Source: Actinomadura sp. NAK00032
GTDB taxonomy: Bacteria > Actinomycetota > Actinomycetes > Streptosporangiales > Streptosporangiaceae
Direction: 5' to 3'
Length of the DNA: 64,000 nt
NCBI RefSeq assembly: GCF_013364275.1
Contig: NZ_CP054932.1
Location: forward strand, 5,022,001-5,086,000
Each line of letters begins with the position of its first letter. Position 1 is the first letter of the stretch. A program made the translations under genes and the position numbers. Below are positions 38,043 through 42,850 of the stretch, one piece after another. The notes below the pieces were generated by a model, which worked only from the letters and a program-made list of their open reading frames with translations, made no database searches and was not told the origin of the DNA.

Positions 38043-39320
38043 CTACGCGCGGGGCGCGGGGGCCCAGCCGGGCATCGGGTAGGACGCGAGCAGCTCGCGG
38101 ACCTGCCCGGCGACCCGCTCGGCGGCGCTCCCGTCCTGCTTGGCGACGCCCTGCACGACCTCGTCGATCCACGCCGCGACCTGCGGCATCTGCTCCGCGC
38201 CGAGCCCGCGCGTGGTGATCGCGGCCGTGCCGATCCGCAGCCCGGACGGGTCGAACGGCTTGCGCGGGTCGAACGGCACGGCGTTGTAGTTCAGCTCGAT
38301 CCCGGCGCGGTCGAGGGCCTGCGCGGCGGGCTTGCCCGCGACGCCCTTGTTCGTCAGGTCGATGAGGATCAGGTGGTTGTCGGTGCCGCCGGAGATCAGG
38401 TCGTAGCCCCGGTCGGTCAGCGCCGCGGCCAGGACCTGCGCGTTCGCGACGATCTGCCGCGCGTACCGGGGGAACTCGGGCTGCGCCGCCTCCTTCAGCG
38501 CGACGGCGATCGCCGCGGTCGTGTGGTCGTGGGGGCCGCCCTGCAGCCCCGGGAACACCGCCTTGTCGACCGCCTTGGCGTGCTCGGCGGTCGACAGGAT
38601 CATGGCGCCGCGCGGGCCGCGCAGCGTCTTGTGCGTGGTCGTGGTGACGACGTCCGCGTGCCCGATCGGGGACGGGTGGGCGCCGCCCGCGATCAGCCCG
38701 GCGATGTGCGCGACGTCGGCGGCGAGCACCGCGCCGGTCTCGCGGGCGATCTCCGCGAACGCCGGGAAGTCGATCGTCCGCGGGATCGCGGTGCCGCCGC
38801 ACCAGATCAGCTTCGGCCGCTCCCGGCGCGCGAGGTCGCGGACCTGGTCCATGTCGACCCGCCCGGTGTCGGCGCGCACGTCGTAGCGGACGGGGCGGAA
38901 CCACTTGCCGGTGGCCGACACCGACCAGCCGTGCGTGAGGTGCCCGCCCATCGGCAGCGACAGCCCCATCACCGGGTCGCCGGGCTCCAGGAACGCCAGG
39001 TAGACGGCGAGGTTCGCGGGCGACCCCGAGTACGGCTGGACGTTGGCGTGCTCGGCGCCGAACACCTCCTTCGCCCGCCGGATCGCCAGCAGCTCGACCG
39101 GGTCGACGTTCTGCTGGCCCTCGTAGTACCGCTTGCCGGCGTAGCCCTCGGAGTACTTGTTCGTCAGGACCGACCCGGTGGCCTCCAGCACCGCCGGCGA
39201 CACGTAGTTCTCGGACGCGATCAGCCGGAGCTTCTCGTACTGGCGGCGGGCCTCGGCCTCCACCAGCCCGGCGATCTCCGGGTCCTCGGCCGACAGGTGG
39301 GATACGGACGGTACGTGCAT
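38043..39320 (-). CDS. glyA: Serine hydroxymethyltransferase
   Basis: This 425-residue protein is a full-length SHMT: RLIASENYVSPAVLEATGSVLTNKYSEGYAGKRYYEG, HVQPYSGSPANLA-like NVQPYSGSPANLAVYLAFLEPGDPVMGL, and the PLP lysine in VVTTTTHKTLRGPRGAMI. It interconverts serine and glycine with tetrahydrofolate and supplies one-carbon units. A GGAGG is placed before the ATG. The upstream leader carries a ZTP (pfl) riboswitch, consistent with glyA control by purine-one-carbon stress. It is monocistronic downstream of the EamA transporter, which supplies part of its riboswitch sequence. Confidence 0.96.
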   Translation of the reverse strand: MHVPSVSHLSAEDPEIAGLVEAEARRQYEKLRLIASENYVSPAVLEATGSVLTNKYSEGYAGKRYYEGQQNVDPVELLAIRRAKEVFGAEHANVQPYSGSPANLAVYLAFLEPGDPVMGLSLPMGGHLTHGWSVSATGKWFRPVRYDVRADTGRVDMDQVRDLARRERPKLIWCGGTAIPRTIDFPAFAEIARETGAVLAADVAHIAGLIAGGAHPSPIGHADVVTTTTHKTLRGPRGAMILSTAEHAKAVDKAVFPGLQGGPHDHTTAAIAVALKEAAQPEFPRYARQIVANAQVLAAALTDRGYDLISGGTDNHLILIDLTNKGVAGKPAAQALDRAGIELNYNAVPFDPRKPFDPSGLRIGTAAITTRGLGAEQMPQVAAWIDEVVQGVAKQDGSAAERVAGQVRELLASYPMPGWAPAPRA

Positions 39321-39374
39321 CGTGAGCCTCCGCGCTGCTCGCGCCGGGACCTCGGGTGCCCGGCGGACGGGACC

Positions 39375-39458
39375 CGTACACCCAGGCGCGCGGTGTGCGG
39401 ACTAGTTTCGCTCCCCGGTGGTCGTCTCCACCTTCACTGCGCCAGTCACGTGCCCGCC
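39375..39458 (-). ncRNA. ZTP (pfl) riboswitch upstream of glyA, overlapping the EamA gene end
   Basis: On the minus strand the pfl consensus is readable: GTGACTGGC (39441-39449), a hairpin, CCACCGGGGAGCGA (about 39408-39421) and GCCTGGGT (39380-39387) as the conserved pseudoknot side. A P1 stem can form between 39452-39457 and 39397-39402 (GCGGGC with GTCCGC, one G-U). These elements sense ZMP/ZTP and control folate and purine genes; glyA is a classic target (established). The aptamer begins inside the final 18 codons of the EamA gene, whose TAG stop lies within it. The region to the start codon could pair CCGCGC with GCGCGG at the ribosome-binding site, so translational control is plausible (inference). 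Confidence 0.85.
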
Positions 39459-40352
39459 ATCATAACGGGCCCGCCGCGGCCTGACCGGGACGGAGACGAC
39501 GAGCAGCCCGCCGAGCAGGAGCAGCGACCCGGCGGCGACCGGCGCCGACAGCCGCTCCCCCAGCACGGCGACGGCGAGGACGGCGGCCACCAGCGGCTCC
39601 GCCAGGCTCAGCGTCCCGGCGGTCGCGGCGGCCACCCGGCCGAGGCCGGTGACGAAGAACATGTACGCGGCCGCCGTCGCGGCGATCCCGAGCCAGCCGA
39701 CCAGCACCGCCGACCGGGGCGCGGCGAGGGCCGGCAGCTCCGCCAGCGTCCAGGGCAGCAGCACCGCTCCCCCCGCGAGCAGCGTCACCGACACGGCGGC
39801 GGCCATCCCCGCGTCCCGCCCGGTGAGGACCTTGGCCGCCACCGTGTAGACGCCGAAGCACGCCCCGGCGGCGAGGCTGAGCAGCACCCCGGCCGGATCG
39901 ACGGGGACGGACGAACCGGGGACCATCAGCAGCGCGACGCCGCCGACCGCGCACCCCGTCCCCGCCCACCAGCGGCGGCTCAGCCGGGTGCGCAGGACGA
40001 ACCGCTCGCAGAGCCCGGTGGAGACCGGGGCCAGCCCGAAGACCACGGCGGTCGCGACGGCGGCGCCGGTGCGGTCGACCGCGCTGAAGAACGCCGCCTG
40101 GAAGGTTCCGGTGGCGGCGGAGGCCGCCGCGAGCGGCGCCCACGTGCGCCGGGTCAGCCCCCGGAACGCGCGCCGGTCCAGCGCGAGCACCAGCAGCGCC
40201 AGGACCAGCCCGCCGGACATGATCCGCGCCCCGCCGACCGCGACCGGCCCCGCGTCCGGTGCGGCCAGCACCTGCGCGGGCCCGACCGTCCCCCAGAGCA
40301 CCCCGGCGGCCAGCACCAGCAGAGCCCCCGATGCATCGTTTCGTCGGTCCAT
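39402..40352 (-). CDS. EamA-family (DMT) transporter
   Basis: This 316-residue transporter has ten membrane segments in two EamA repeats: GALLVLAAGVLWGTVGPAQVL, TAVVFGLAPVSTGLCERFVL, VLLSLAAGACFGVYTVAAKVL and GTLSLAEPLVAAVLAVAVLGERL. Family members export amino acids or metabolites. A TAGGTT lies seven bases before the ATG with no Shine-Dalgarno site (leaderless layout). The final residues (ARYDGGHVTGAVKVETTTGE) are encoded by the same bases as the glyA riboswitch aptamer and are unlike a normal transporter tail. The Lrp gene upstream on the same strand may regulate it, as Lrp proteins often control amino-acid exporters. Confidence 0.86.
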   Translation of the reverse strand: MDRRNDASGALLVLAAGVLWGTVGPAQVLAAPDAGPVAVGGARIMSGGLVLALLVLALDRRAFRGLTRRTWAPLAAASAATGTFQAAFFSAVDRTGAAVATAVVFGLAPVSTGLCERFVLRTRLSRRWWAGTGCAVGGVALLMVPGSSVPVDPAGVLLSLAAGACFGVYTVAAKVLTGRDAGMAAAVSVTLLAGGAVLLPWTLAELPALAAPRSAVLVGWLGIAATAAAYMFFVTGLGRVAAATAGTLSLAEPLVAAVLAVAVLGERLSAPVAAGSLLLLGGLLVVSVPVRPRRARYDGGHVTGAVKVETTTGERN

Positions 40353-40462: not shown

Positions 40463-40954
40463 TCAGCTGTAGGACGTTCGGCCCTCGCGTGAGCCCGCCG
40501 CCGGAAGTTCGGACTGCTCCACCGGCTGGACGTAGTCGTAGACGACCGTGGTGCGGACGTCCACGAACTCCTTGCGGCGCGCCAGCCGGTCCAGCACGAA
40601 GTCGCGCAGGTAGGCGGTGCTCGGCACCGCCACGTGGACCAGCAGGTCCTCGTTGCCGGTCACGACGAAGACCCCGACCGCCTCGGGCATCGCGGCCATG
40701 CCGTCGCGCGCCGACTCGATGGCCTCCCGCGACTGCGGCCGGATCCGGATCGAGATCAGCGCCTGCACCCCGCGGCCGAGGCGCTCGAAGTCCACGGCGG
40801 CGTGGAACCCGGTGAGGACGCCCCGCGCCCGCAGCGCCCGCGTGCGCTCCAGCGCCGTGGACGGCGCGATGCCCACCGCCTCGGCCAGCTCCCGGTTGGT
40901 CTGCCGCCCGTCCCGCTGCAACCGCCGCAGGATCGCCTGATCGACCGCGTCCAC
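40463..40954 (-). CDS. Lrp/AsnC-family regulator
   Basis: This 163-residue regulator has the AsnC-type HTH DQAILRRLQRDGRQTNRELAEAVGIAPSTALERTRALRARGVLTG and the RAM effector domain (VQALISIRIRPQS, VGVFVVTGNEDLLVHVAVPS, VDVRTTVVYDYV). Lrp proteins form multimers and respond to amino acids. It lies 110 bases ahead of the EamA gene on the same strand, a typical regulator-exporter pairing. The GTG start has little ribosome-binding support. Confidence 0.87.
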   Translation of the reverse strand: MDAVDQAILRRLQRDGRQTNRELAEAVGIAPSTALERTRALRARGVLTGFHAAVDFERLGRGVQALISIRIRPQSREAIESARDGMAAMPEAVGVFVVTGNEDLLVHVAVPSTAYLRDFVLDRLARRKEFVDVRTTVVYDYVQPVEQSELPAAGSREGRTSYS

Positions 40955-41152
40955 CGGTGCCCCTCCCCGAGATCTCCGCCGATGCCGAACGCCCGCGCGC
41001 GAACCACGCCCGGATGCCCCGCCATCCGAAGATTATTCGACCGCGAGCCGTGCTTCGAGACCGTCCGGCATGCCCGCACGTGGAGCGGCCGGACGCGGTG
41101 AACGCGGCGCCGCGCGCCCTGTGGACGTCGTAGGGCGGCGCGGGGACGCGAA

Positions 41153-41181
41153 CGGCCCGGCTCCCTCGCGGGGCCGGGCCG
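41153..41181 (-). terminator. Terminator-like hairpin after rbpA
   Basis: CGGCCCGGC and GCCGGGCCG are perfect nine-base arms around an 11-base loop, 22 bases after the rbpA stop. No T-tract follows, as is common in high-GC actinobacteria, so this is an I-type terminator call. The remaining bases up to the Lrp start (40955-41152) show nothing else clear. Confidence 0.55.
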
Positions 41182-41203
41182 GGATGCGCCGGTGCGCGTG
41201 CGG

Positions 41204-41575
41204 CTAGCGGGCCGCGGCCTCCATGGCCTGCTTCACGGCGGCGCGCTTCTCGCGGAGCTTGGCGAGCGCCTCCTCCAGGATGGCCTCGCCGTCCTCGTCG
41301 CTCCGGCGCTCCTTCACGTACGCCAGGTGCGTCTTGTAGGGCTCGGTCTTCGGCGGCGCCGGGGGGTTGTCCGCGTCCTGGCCGGCGGGGAACCCGCAGC
41401 GCGGGCAGTCCCACGTCTCGGGGACCGCGACGTCCGTCGCGAAGCTGGGCCGGGTCTCGTGCCGGTTGGCGCAGTAGAAGGTCACCCAGACACGGGGGGC
41501 GGCGTCGCCGCGCTCCGCCTCTCCCATCGGACCGGCCCCGACGCGGCTGCCCCGAATCGCGTTGCCACTACCCAC
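41204..41575 (-). CDS. rbpA: RNA polymerase-binding protein RbpA
   Basis: This 123-residue protein is RbpA: AIRGSRVGAGP near the N-terminus (the AxRGSRxG motif that contacts polymerase), a zinc-binding core with YCANRHE and WDCPRCG (Cys, His, Cys, Cys), a basic linker KTEPYKTHLAYVKERRS and the sigma-binding helix DEDGEAILEEALAKLREK. It stabilises open complexes with the housekeeping sigma factor and can aid rifampicin tolerance (established). The zinc ligands are intact, as in Streptomyces and unlike M. tuberculosis. The GTG start follows GAGGAG by seven bases. It is the last gene of the gap-pgk-tpiA-secG run. Confidence 0.93.
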   Translation of the reverse strand: MGSGNAIRGSRVGAGPMGEAERGDAAPRVWVTFYCANRHETRPSFATDVAVPETWDCPRCGFPAGQDADNPPAPPKTEPYKTHLAYVKERRSDEDGEAILEEALAKLREKRAAVKQAMEAAAR

Positions 41576-41597
41576 GGAATACTCCTCGCTCGGTGTT

Positions 41598-41632
41598 CCG
41601 CCGCCGTCCGTGACCTCCTGGGACGGCGGCGG
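41598..41632 (-). terminator. Hairpin between secG and rbpA
   Basis: CCGCCGCCGTCC (41598-41609) and GGACGGCGGCGG (41621-41632) are perfect 12-base arms with an 11-base loop. It lies 25 bases beyond the secG stop and 23 bases before the rbpA start and has no T-tract, so it could terminate transcription, protect secG mRNA or reduce read-through into rbpA. Confidence 0.55.
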
Positions 41633-41657
41633 CGATCGCAAATGTCAGACGGGTGGC

Positions 41658-41900
41658 TCAGCCGACGCCCTTGTGCTTGAACAGCAGCCCCAGCACGACG
41701 ATCGAGGCGAACCACAGCACCCCGACGCCGACCGTCAGCCGGTCGAGGTTGCGCTCGACCACGGACGACCCGCCCAGGGACGACGAGACTCCGCCGCCGA
41801 ACATGTCCGACAGCCCGCCGCCCTTGCCCTTGTGCATCAGGACGAGGACCACCATCAGCAGGCTCGTGACGATGAGCACGATGGACGTTGCGATGATCAC
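41658..41900 (-). CDS. secG: Preprotein translocase subunit SecG
   Basis: This 80-residue protein has two membrane segments (IIATSIVLIVTSLLMVVLVLM and VGVLWFASIVVLGLLF) around a cytoplasmic HKGKGGGLSDMFGGG loop, the normal SecG layout. It helps SecYE in protein export. It starts at a GTG 138 bases after tpiA. Conserved position after tpiA in actinobacteria supports the call. Confidence 0.95.
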   Translation of the reverse strand: MIIATSIVLIVTSLLMVVLVLMHKGKGGGLSDMFGGGVSSSLGGSSVVERNLDRLTVGVGVLWFASIVVLGLLFKHKGVG

Positions 41901-42037
41901 GATTCTTCAGCGCCTTTGTCTGTAGGTCGGGGACGGAGGGTCGGCCGGGCGGTTTACCCGTCAGCTACGAAGGGTACGACGAACTACCCGCTGGTTCGGC
42001 AAGAACCCCCAGTTCACGCAGAATTGATCAGTTTTGA

Positions 42038-42850
42038 TCAGACGGGGAGATCCCGGTACCGGCAGATCTTGACGAATTCTCCCGGGTCCAGGCTGGCACC
42101 ACCGACCAGGGCGCCGTCCACGTCCTCCTGCGCCATGAGCTTGGCGACGTTGCCGCTCTTGACCGAACCGCCGTACAGGATACGCACCTCGTCGGCCAGT
42201 CCGCCGTCGTACAGCTCGGCGAGCCGCGTCCTGATCGCGGCGCAGACCTCCTGCGCGTCCTGCGGGGTGGCGACCTCGCCGGTGCCGATCGCCCAGACCG
42301 GCTCGTAGGCGATCACGGTGCGCCGCACATGCTCGGCGGGGATCTTCTCCAGCCCGCCGACCAGCTGGGTGAGGCAGTGGTGGACGTGCCCGCCGGCCTT
42401 GCGGACCTCCAGGCCCTCCCCGATGCACAGGATCGGGGTGATGTCGGCGGCGAGCGCCGCCTTGGCCTTGGCGTTGACGACCGCGTCGTCCTCGGCGTGG
42501 AACTGGCGGCGCTCGGAGTGCCCCACGACGGCGTAGTCGCAGCCGAGCTTGGCGAGCATCGACGCGGCGATCTCGCCGGTGTAGGCGCCGGAGGCGTGCT
42601 GGGAGACGTCCTGCGCGCCGTACTGGATGGCGAGCCGGTCGGCGTCGACGAGCGTCTGCACCGACCGGATCGCCGTGAACGGCGGGATCACGGCGATGTC
42701 GACGGCGTCGTAGTCGGCGTCCTTGAGCGCGAACGCCATCTTCTGGACGAGCGCGATCGCCTCGAGGTGGTTGTTGTTCATCTTCCAGTTGCCCGCCATG
42801 AGCGGCTTGCGGCCGCTCTGCTTGCCGGAAGAAGGGGTCGCGGGGGCCAT
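42038..42850 (-). CDS. tpiA: Triosephosphate isomerase
   Basis: This 270-residue protein has all TIM signatures: [10 protein letters not shown] (substrate Lys), [10 protein letters not shown] (catalytic His) and [13 protein letters not shown] (catalytic Glu), with GGSVKSGN for phosphate binding near the end. It interconverts dihydroxyacetone phosphate and glyceraldehyde 3-phosphate. A 14-residue N-terminal extension ([14 protein letters not shown]) precedes the core. It lies three bases after pgk in the glycolytic run. Confidence 0.97.

Follow-up and report, generated by a model that had tools for sequence, protein, structure and literature searches.

A glyA ZMP/ZTP riboswitch overlapped by the 3' end of an upstream EamA transporter gene in Actinomadura

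Both glyA and folD are listed targets of ZMP/ZTP (pfl) riboswitches (PMC2864571). An involvement of translation in riboswitch function has been described for the B12 riboswitches of metE and ppe2 in Mycobacterium tuberculosis, where translation of a uORF alters the downstream gene (PMC11260477). Here, we analyzed a 64,000-nucleotide stretch of the genome of Actinomadura sp. NAK00032, referred to as the window, in which a ZMP/ZTP riboswitch precedes glyA. This riboswitch resembles the known members of Rfam family RF01750 in its sequence, core motifs, P2, P3, and regulated gene, but differs from them in that 58 nt of the match are codons of an upstream gene, in that P1 has only ~3 bp and adjoins a predicted promoter, and in that a terminator is absent. 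The locus shares with the M. tuberculosis B12 switches the presence of a coding frame inside an aptamer or expression platform. In M. tuberculosis, however, a short uORF begins within the leader, whereas in Actinomadura a complete upstream gene enters the aptamer with its 3' end; moreover, glyA is apparently transcribed from a start site of its own, so that most glyA mRNA would lack the upstream frame, unlike in the case of the uORFs. We found no account of the 3' end of an upstream gene lying inside a riboswitch aptamer in the openly licensed literature.

A covariance-model search of the 64-kb window (cmscan) gave one Rfam match above the cut-off, RF01750 (ZMP-ZTP), at positions 39459–39373 on the minus strand, with 47.2 bits compared with a gathering score of 39 bits and an E-value of 0.00014 for 64 kb. 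The match is full-length (model positions 1–86 complete) and contains the conserved cores GACUGGCG, CCACCGGGGAGCG, and GCGCCUGGG in this order, as well as P2 and the non-coding P3 hairpin (ACACC...GGUGU; 39378–39396, minus strand). A preliminary description of this DNA had proposed a ZTP riboswitch for glyA at 39375–39458, based on pfl/ZTP motifs in the correct order on the glyA strand; the identification, the motifs, and the site are borne out by the search, while the limits of the match lie slightly further out. The start of glyA is 53 nt downstream of the aptamer on the same strand. The gene (38043–39320, minus strand) encodes serine hydroxymethyltransferase (Pfam SHMT PF00464, 504 bits), and its Shine-Dalgarno (SD) sequence, GGAGG (39327–39331, minus strand), is near-invariant in an alignment of Actinomadura leaders. 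Judged by its sequence, this is a glyA-linked ZMP/ZTP riboswitch, for which ZMP/ZTP binding and switching are predicted.

The gene upstream encodes an EamA-family transporter of 316 residues (39402–40352, minus strand; Pfam PF00892, 113.3 bits with a cut-off of 28.2). Its reading frame, ...HVTGAVKVETTTGERN*, terminates at a TAG (39404–39402, minus strand) in the linker between the P1/P2 half of the aptamer and P3, and its end reads CAC GTG ACT GGC GCA GTG AAG GTG GAG ACG ACC ACC GGG GAG CGA AAC TAG. The whole P1/P2 half (39405–39449, minus strand) is therefore coding and corresponds to 15 EamA codons (VTGAVKVETTTGERN), with the stop placed before P3. Bases shared by protein and aptamer, and a TAG inside the aptamer, had both been noted before; the overlap measures 58 nt when counted over the Rfam match and 50 nt when counted over the predicted glyA transcript. 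The predicted glyA -10 box, TATGAT (39459–39464, minus strand), lies inside the EamA codons R-Y-D. By sequence, the EamA tail is mostly translated putative glyA promoter and aptamer.

All 60 Actinomadura glyA loci, with or without EamA, have TATGAT or a close variant at a constant spacing upstream of the aptamer, and an A located 8 nt past the box (39451 in the window, minus strand) is present in 59 of the 60. Elsewhere in the class, too, TAnnnT-like boxes adjoin the aptamer, in further genera and families. A sequence scan matched no -35 element at the glyA promoter and called no sigma70 consensus promoter, and the case for a promoter therefore rests on conservation. Because the -10-like box and the downstream A are conserved both with and without EamA, glyA probably has its own promoter, with an mRNA that starts near 39451, at the edge of the aptamer. 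As far as the sequence tells, transcription does not start downstream of 39400, where the aptamer would be left out of the glyA mRNA. A start at the aptamer edge would explain the short P1: the model has 10 pairs, of which five are non-standard in the window match, and some 3 bp lie beside the junction, a length that is seen genus-wide, including in Actinomadura lacking EamA. An own start would also mean that the ordinary glyA mRNA carries neither the EamA start nor EamA ribosomes, and that EamA translation could reach the switch solely on read-through transcripts. The idea that ribosomes translating EamA disrupt the aptamer may thus apply to read-through RNA, but it would not concern the main glyA mRNA. 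A suggested influence of the riboswitch on where the EamA mRNA ends is unsupported, since a terminator scan found no intrinsic terminator or terminator-like site after the aptamer.

The window comes from a soil bacterium of the genus Actinomadura, and its nearest named relatives include A. meyerae and A. geliboluensis. RF01750 scored above the cut-off in 65 of 65 Actinomadura genomes searched, usually with two matches each; in the window's genome, the two copies precede glyA and folD, the latter judged from the ORF sequence. We examined 60 Actinomadura glyA loci, including that of the window. A same-strand EamA gene lies upstream of glyA in 33 of these, overlaps the aptamer in 31, and ends at exactly the linker TAG in 28, a number that includes one locus in a draft assembly where the body of EamA is broken (L046). 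Three EamA frames run beyond P3. In two of them (L060 and L056), the linker TAG is lost and the frame, after crossing P3 and the expression platform, reaches just past or into the glyA start, and in the third (L074), EamA enters the aptamer in another frame and terminates after P3. In the remaining two loci (L019 and L051), EamA stops upstream of the aptamer. As RF01750 is present in all 65 genomes and the overlap recurs in most of the EamA-carrying members, the observation is not due to chance. In L036 (reverse strand, 3285–1633), an unrelated MFS transporter (102.9 bits) takes the place of EamA and uses the same frame and the same TAG inside the aptamer.

Species without EamA have rbpA or an unrelated gene upstream of glyA (by Pfam, RbpA, TetR, a methyltransferase, or an acyltransferase), and several of them retain the TAG. 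Long antisense-type frames in these species were set aside, the upstream genes having been identified by Pfam. The gene order in relatives lacking EamA is tpiA-secG-rbpA-glyA; in the window, an AsnC/Lrp-type regulator and EamA appear between rbpA and glyA (40463–42850).

The core of the aptamer is near-invariant in an alignment of 59 Actinomadura loci, and the aptamer scores are alike in loci with the EamA overlap (mean 48.5 bits) and in other loci (49.2 bits; p 0.24). What we see is a real, conserved, and ordinary riboswitch in an unusual genomic overlap. The idea that the aptamer is a decayed, non-functional remnant overridden by coding could draw on the P1 of just 3 pairs and the five non-standard pairs in the match, but these scores, the invariance of the core in 59 species, and the occurrence of the short P1 in EamA-less Actinomadura, where a start at the aptamer edge fits, make it highly improbable.

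Conservation differs along the EamA gene. Codon-position differences of 0.146/0.057/0.279 in the EamA core indicate strong purifying selection on the protein, the Arg-rich spacer that follows shows a weak bias (0.35/0.28/0.45), and no amino-acid selection was detectable in the aptamer part of the tail (0.061/0.031/0.059). The spacer between the VVSVP end of EamA and the aptamer occurs in 11 lengths of 30 to 198 nt that are all multiples of three, the sole off-frame length being 26 nt (L074), so that 11 of 12 lengths keep the frame across spacer indels; on the glyA tree, spacer length changed at least 12 times. The chance of at least 11 in-frame lengths is roughly 5e-5 if the frame is free and 0.003 if only frames 0 and 2 are tolerable, in a binomial calculation where the twelve lengths stand proxy for events, many nodes of the glyA tree being poorly supported. 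Of 30 frame-0 EamA loci, 28 have the TAG, versus 8 of 18 EamA-less loci with equal linker length (Fisher p 0.0003, uncorrected for kinship). It would thus seem that the residues of the tail are unimportant and that the reading frame is what is kept. As the aptamer part shows no amino-acid selection, the frame may be constrained by the Arg-rich stretch of the tail or because the other frames would be harmful.

EamA homologues encoded elsewhere than at this locus, in Pseudonocardia and A. hibisca, end in ordinary tails that are about as long but different. In the preliminary description, the transporter tail seemed to have been extended into the riboswitch. The tail does differ from those of outside homologues and does enter the switch, but the similar length of the outside tails speaks against lengthening; replacement of the tail by regulatory DNA fits the sequences better.

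Outside Actinomadura, no overlap deeper than ~11 nt was seen in ~95 ZTP loci, which were picked by score and so represent a sample rather than a census, and in which upstream frames were judged by GC content by codon position, a crude caller. Within the family (~67 loci), upstream frames reach at most 4–6 nt into the match, and none of 27 usable loci of the wider class goes deeper than +11, the +11 case being weakly called. In sister genera (L133, L141, L142, L144, L136, L145, and L147), the upstream coding sequence reaches across the glyA -10 box near locus position 1500 and ends with a TAA 4–6 nt inside the aptamer match (TCCGCTATCGTCTAAGC); this overlap of promoter and coding sequence is an independent one. 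These loci are like Actinomadura in that the upstream frame covers the -10 box and stops shortly after entering the Rfam match (with TAA at +4 in, for example, L133, L141, and L144), and unlike it in that the overlap of ~6 nt spares the aptamer core.

Since an intrinsic terminator is absent, control of glyA is likely translational. Directly after the EamA stop and beside the base of P3 lies UCCGC (39397–39401, minus strand), a candidate anti-SD whose predicted partner is GCGGA in the glyA SD (pairing probability 0.81 in the window and >0.5 in 33 of 59 loci). The two sides of this pairing hardly vary and do not covary, and covariation is almost absent from an RNAalifold analysis of the 59 leaders. 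Folded without constraints, the window leader is no more stable than shuffles (z 0.20) and lends no support to a particular platform. When the aptamer was imposed as a constraint, the SD opened weakly, in 36 of 59 loci, and when the linker was masked as by a terminating ribosome, predicted SD openness rose in 49 of 59. An ON-switch that acts by release of the SD would be in line with the riboswitch family, and the predicted folds agree with it weakly. With UCCGC placed right after the TAG and predicted to pair with the SD, a translational coupling of EamA and glyA is a plausible hypothesis.

The explanation that we favor, with a probability of roughly 0.7, is that of a ZTP ON-switch with its own promoter that was later overrun by a stop-less EamA frame. 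A rise in ZMP/ZTP upon shortage of 10-formyl-THF would turn on glyA through the riboswitch. The transcript would begin at a promoter of glyA's own, whose -10 box touches the aptamer, with the first base pairs of the ~3-bp P1. Early in Actinomadura, EamA, probably together with the adjacent AsnC/Lrp-type gene, would have taken up its place between rbpA and glyA. With the loss of its own stop, the EamA frame would have continued through the -10 box and then the P1/P2 half, ending only at the linker TAG, the first stop met in frame. On the main glyA mRNA, the aptamer would be free of ribosomes; on read-through mRNA from EamA, ribosomes would halt at the TAG, beside the UCCGC that may mask the glyA SD.

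As an alternative, a pure accident would entail that EamA lost its stop, that the frame drifted through harmless regulatory DNA to the next stop, and that the frame is kept only because the Arg-rich tail acts as an anchor in the cytoplasm and a shift to frame 1 would lead toward or into glyA. We consider this account to have somewhat better than even odds. The aptamer and -10 sequences by themselves leave frame 0 open, the TAG is one base from the CAG of EamA-less species, codon-position bias is weak in the Arg-rich spacer and lacking in the aptamer part, and in the sister genera, too, upstream genes extend over the promoter and a few initial nucleotides of the aptamer. However, none of the EamA genes uses frame 2, although it would end harmlessly at a TGA within the -10 box, and p is ~0.003 if either of frames 0 and 2 could be freely chosen.

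The persistence of frame and TAG across spacer changes, the MFS replacement with the same frame and stop, and the effect of masking the linker would all suit translational coupling, in which EamA ribosomes at the TAG cover UCCGC (39401–39397) on read-through mRNA and open the glyA SD, so that EamA translation, as a second input, adds to the effect of ZMP or overrides it, and frame and stop are kept for that reason. Intact glyA switches are nevertheless retained where EamA stops upstream (L019 and L051), enters in another frame (L074), or has lost the TAG (L060 and L056). Fold predictions for a GC-rich RNA of 140 nt are also unreliable, and the SD may open whichever 30 nt are masked. Finally, transcription of EamA and glyA on one mRNA is an assumption, and the conserved promoter box suggests separate transcripts. 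On balance, coupling appears unlikely, and we are a little more doubtful still of its strongest form, in which EamA would be a built-in second input whose ribosomes at the TAG, on read-through mRNA, force glyA expression or prevent the aptamer from folding, with selection keeping frame and stop even where an MFS gene replaces EamA. The occurrence of the same-frame overlap in many relatives is a hint that synthesis of the transporter may influence the switch.

The locus appears to be a natural and species-rich case (~30 Actinomadura species) in which one set of bases serves as promoter, aptamer, and coding sequence. A ready comparison for any effect of translation through an aptamer is offered by species that have the overlap, lack the gene, or show a shifted frame, a lost stop, or a replaced gene. 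For annotators, the locus is a warning that a conserved C-terminal tail (RYDGxHxTGAVKVETTTGER) can arise where regulatory DNA is read through and need not be a protein motif.

The second ZTP switch of the genome, at folD (L002, ~1587–1502, minus strand), also has a TAnnnT-like box, followed by ACGCGACTGG at equal distance, and lacks a coding overlap. An apparent EamA-GlyA fusion in L019, seen as a long open frame 1, was rejected, as the true EamA frame stops upstream. In L051, the EamA-glyA intergenic region is expanded by degenerate short repeats (with translations such as GLLKVRPAEGA), and the EamA overlap is lost. L049 carries, at ~1300–1655, an EamA remnant with large internal deletions that is still in frame with the aptamer tail, with a TetR gene upstream.
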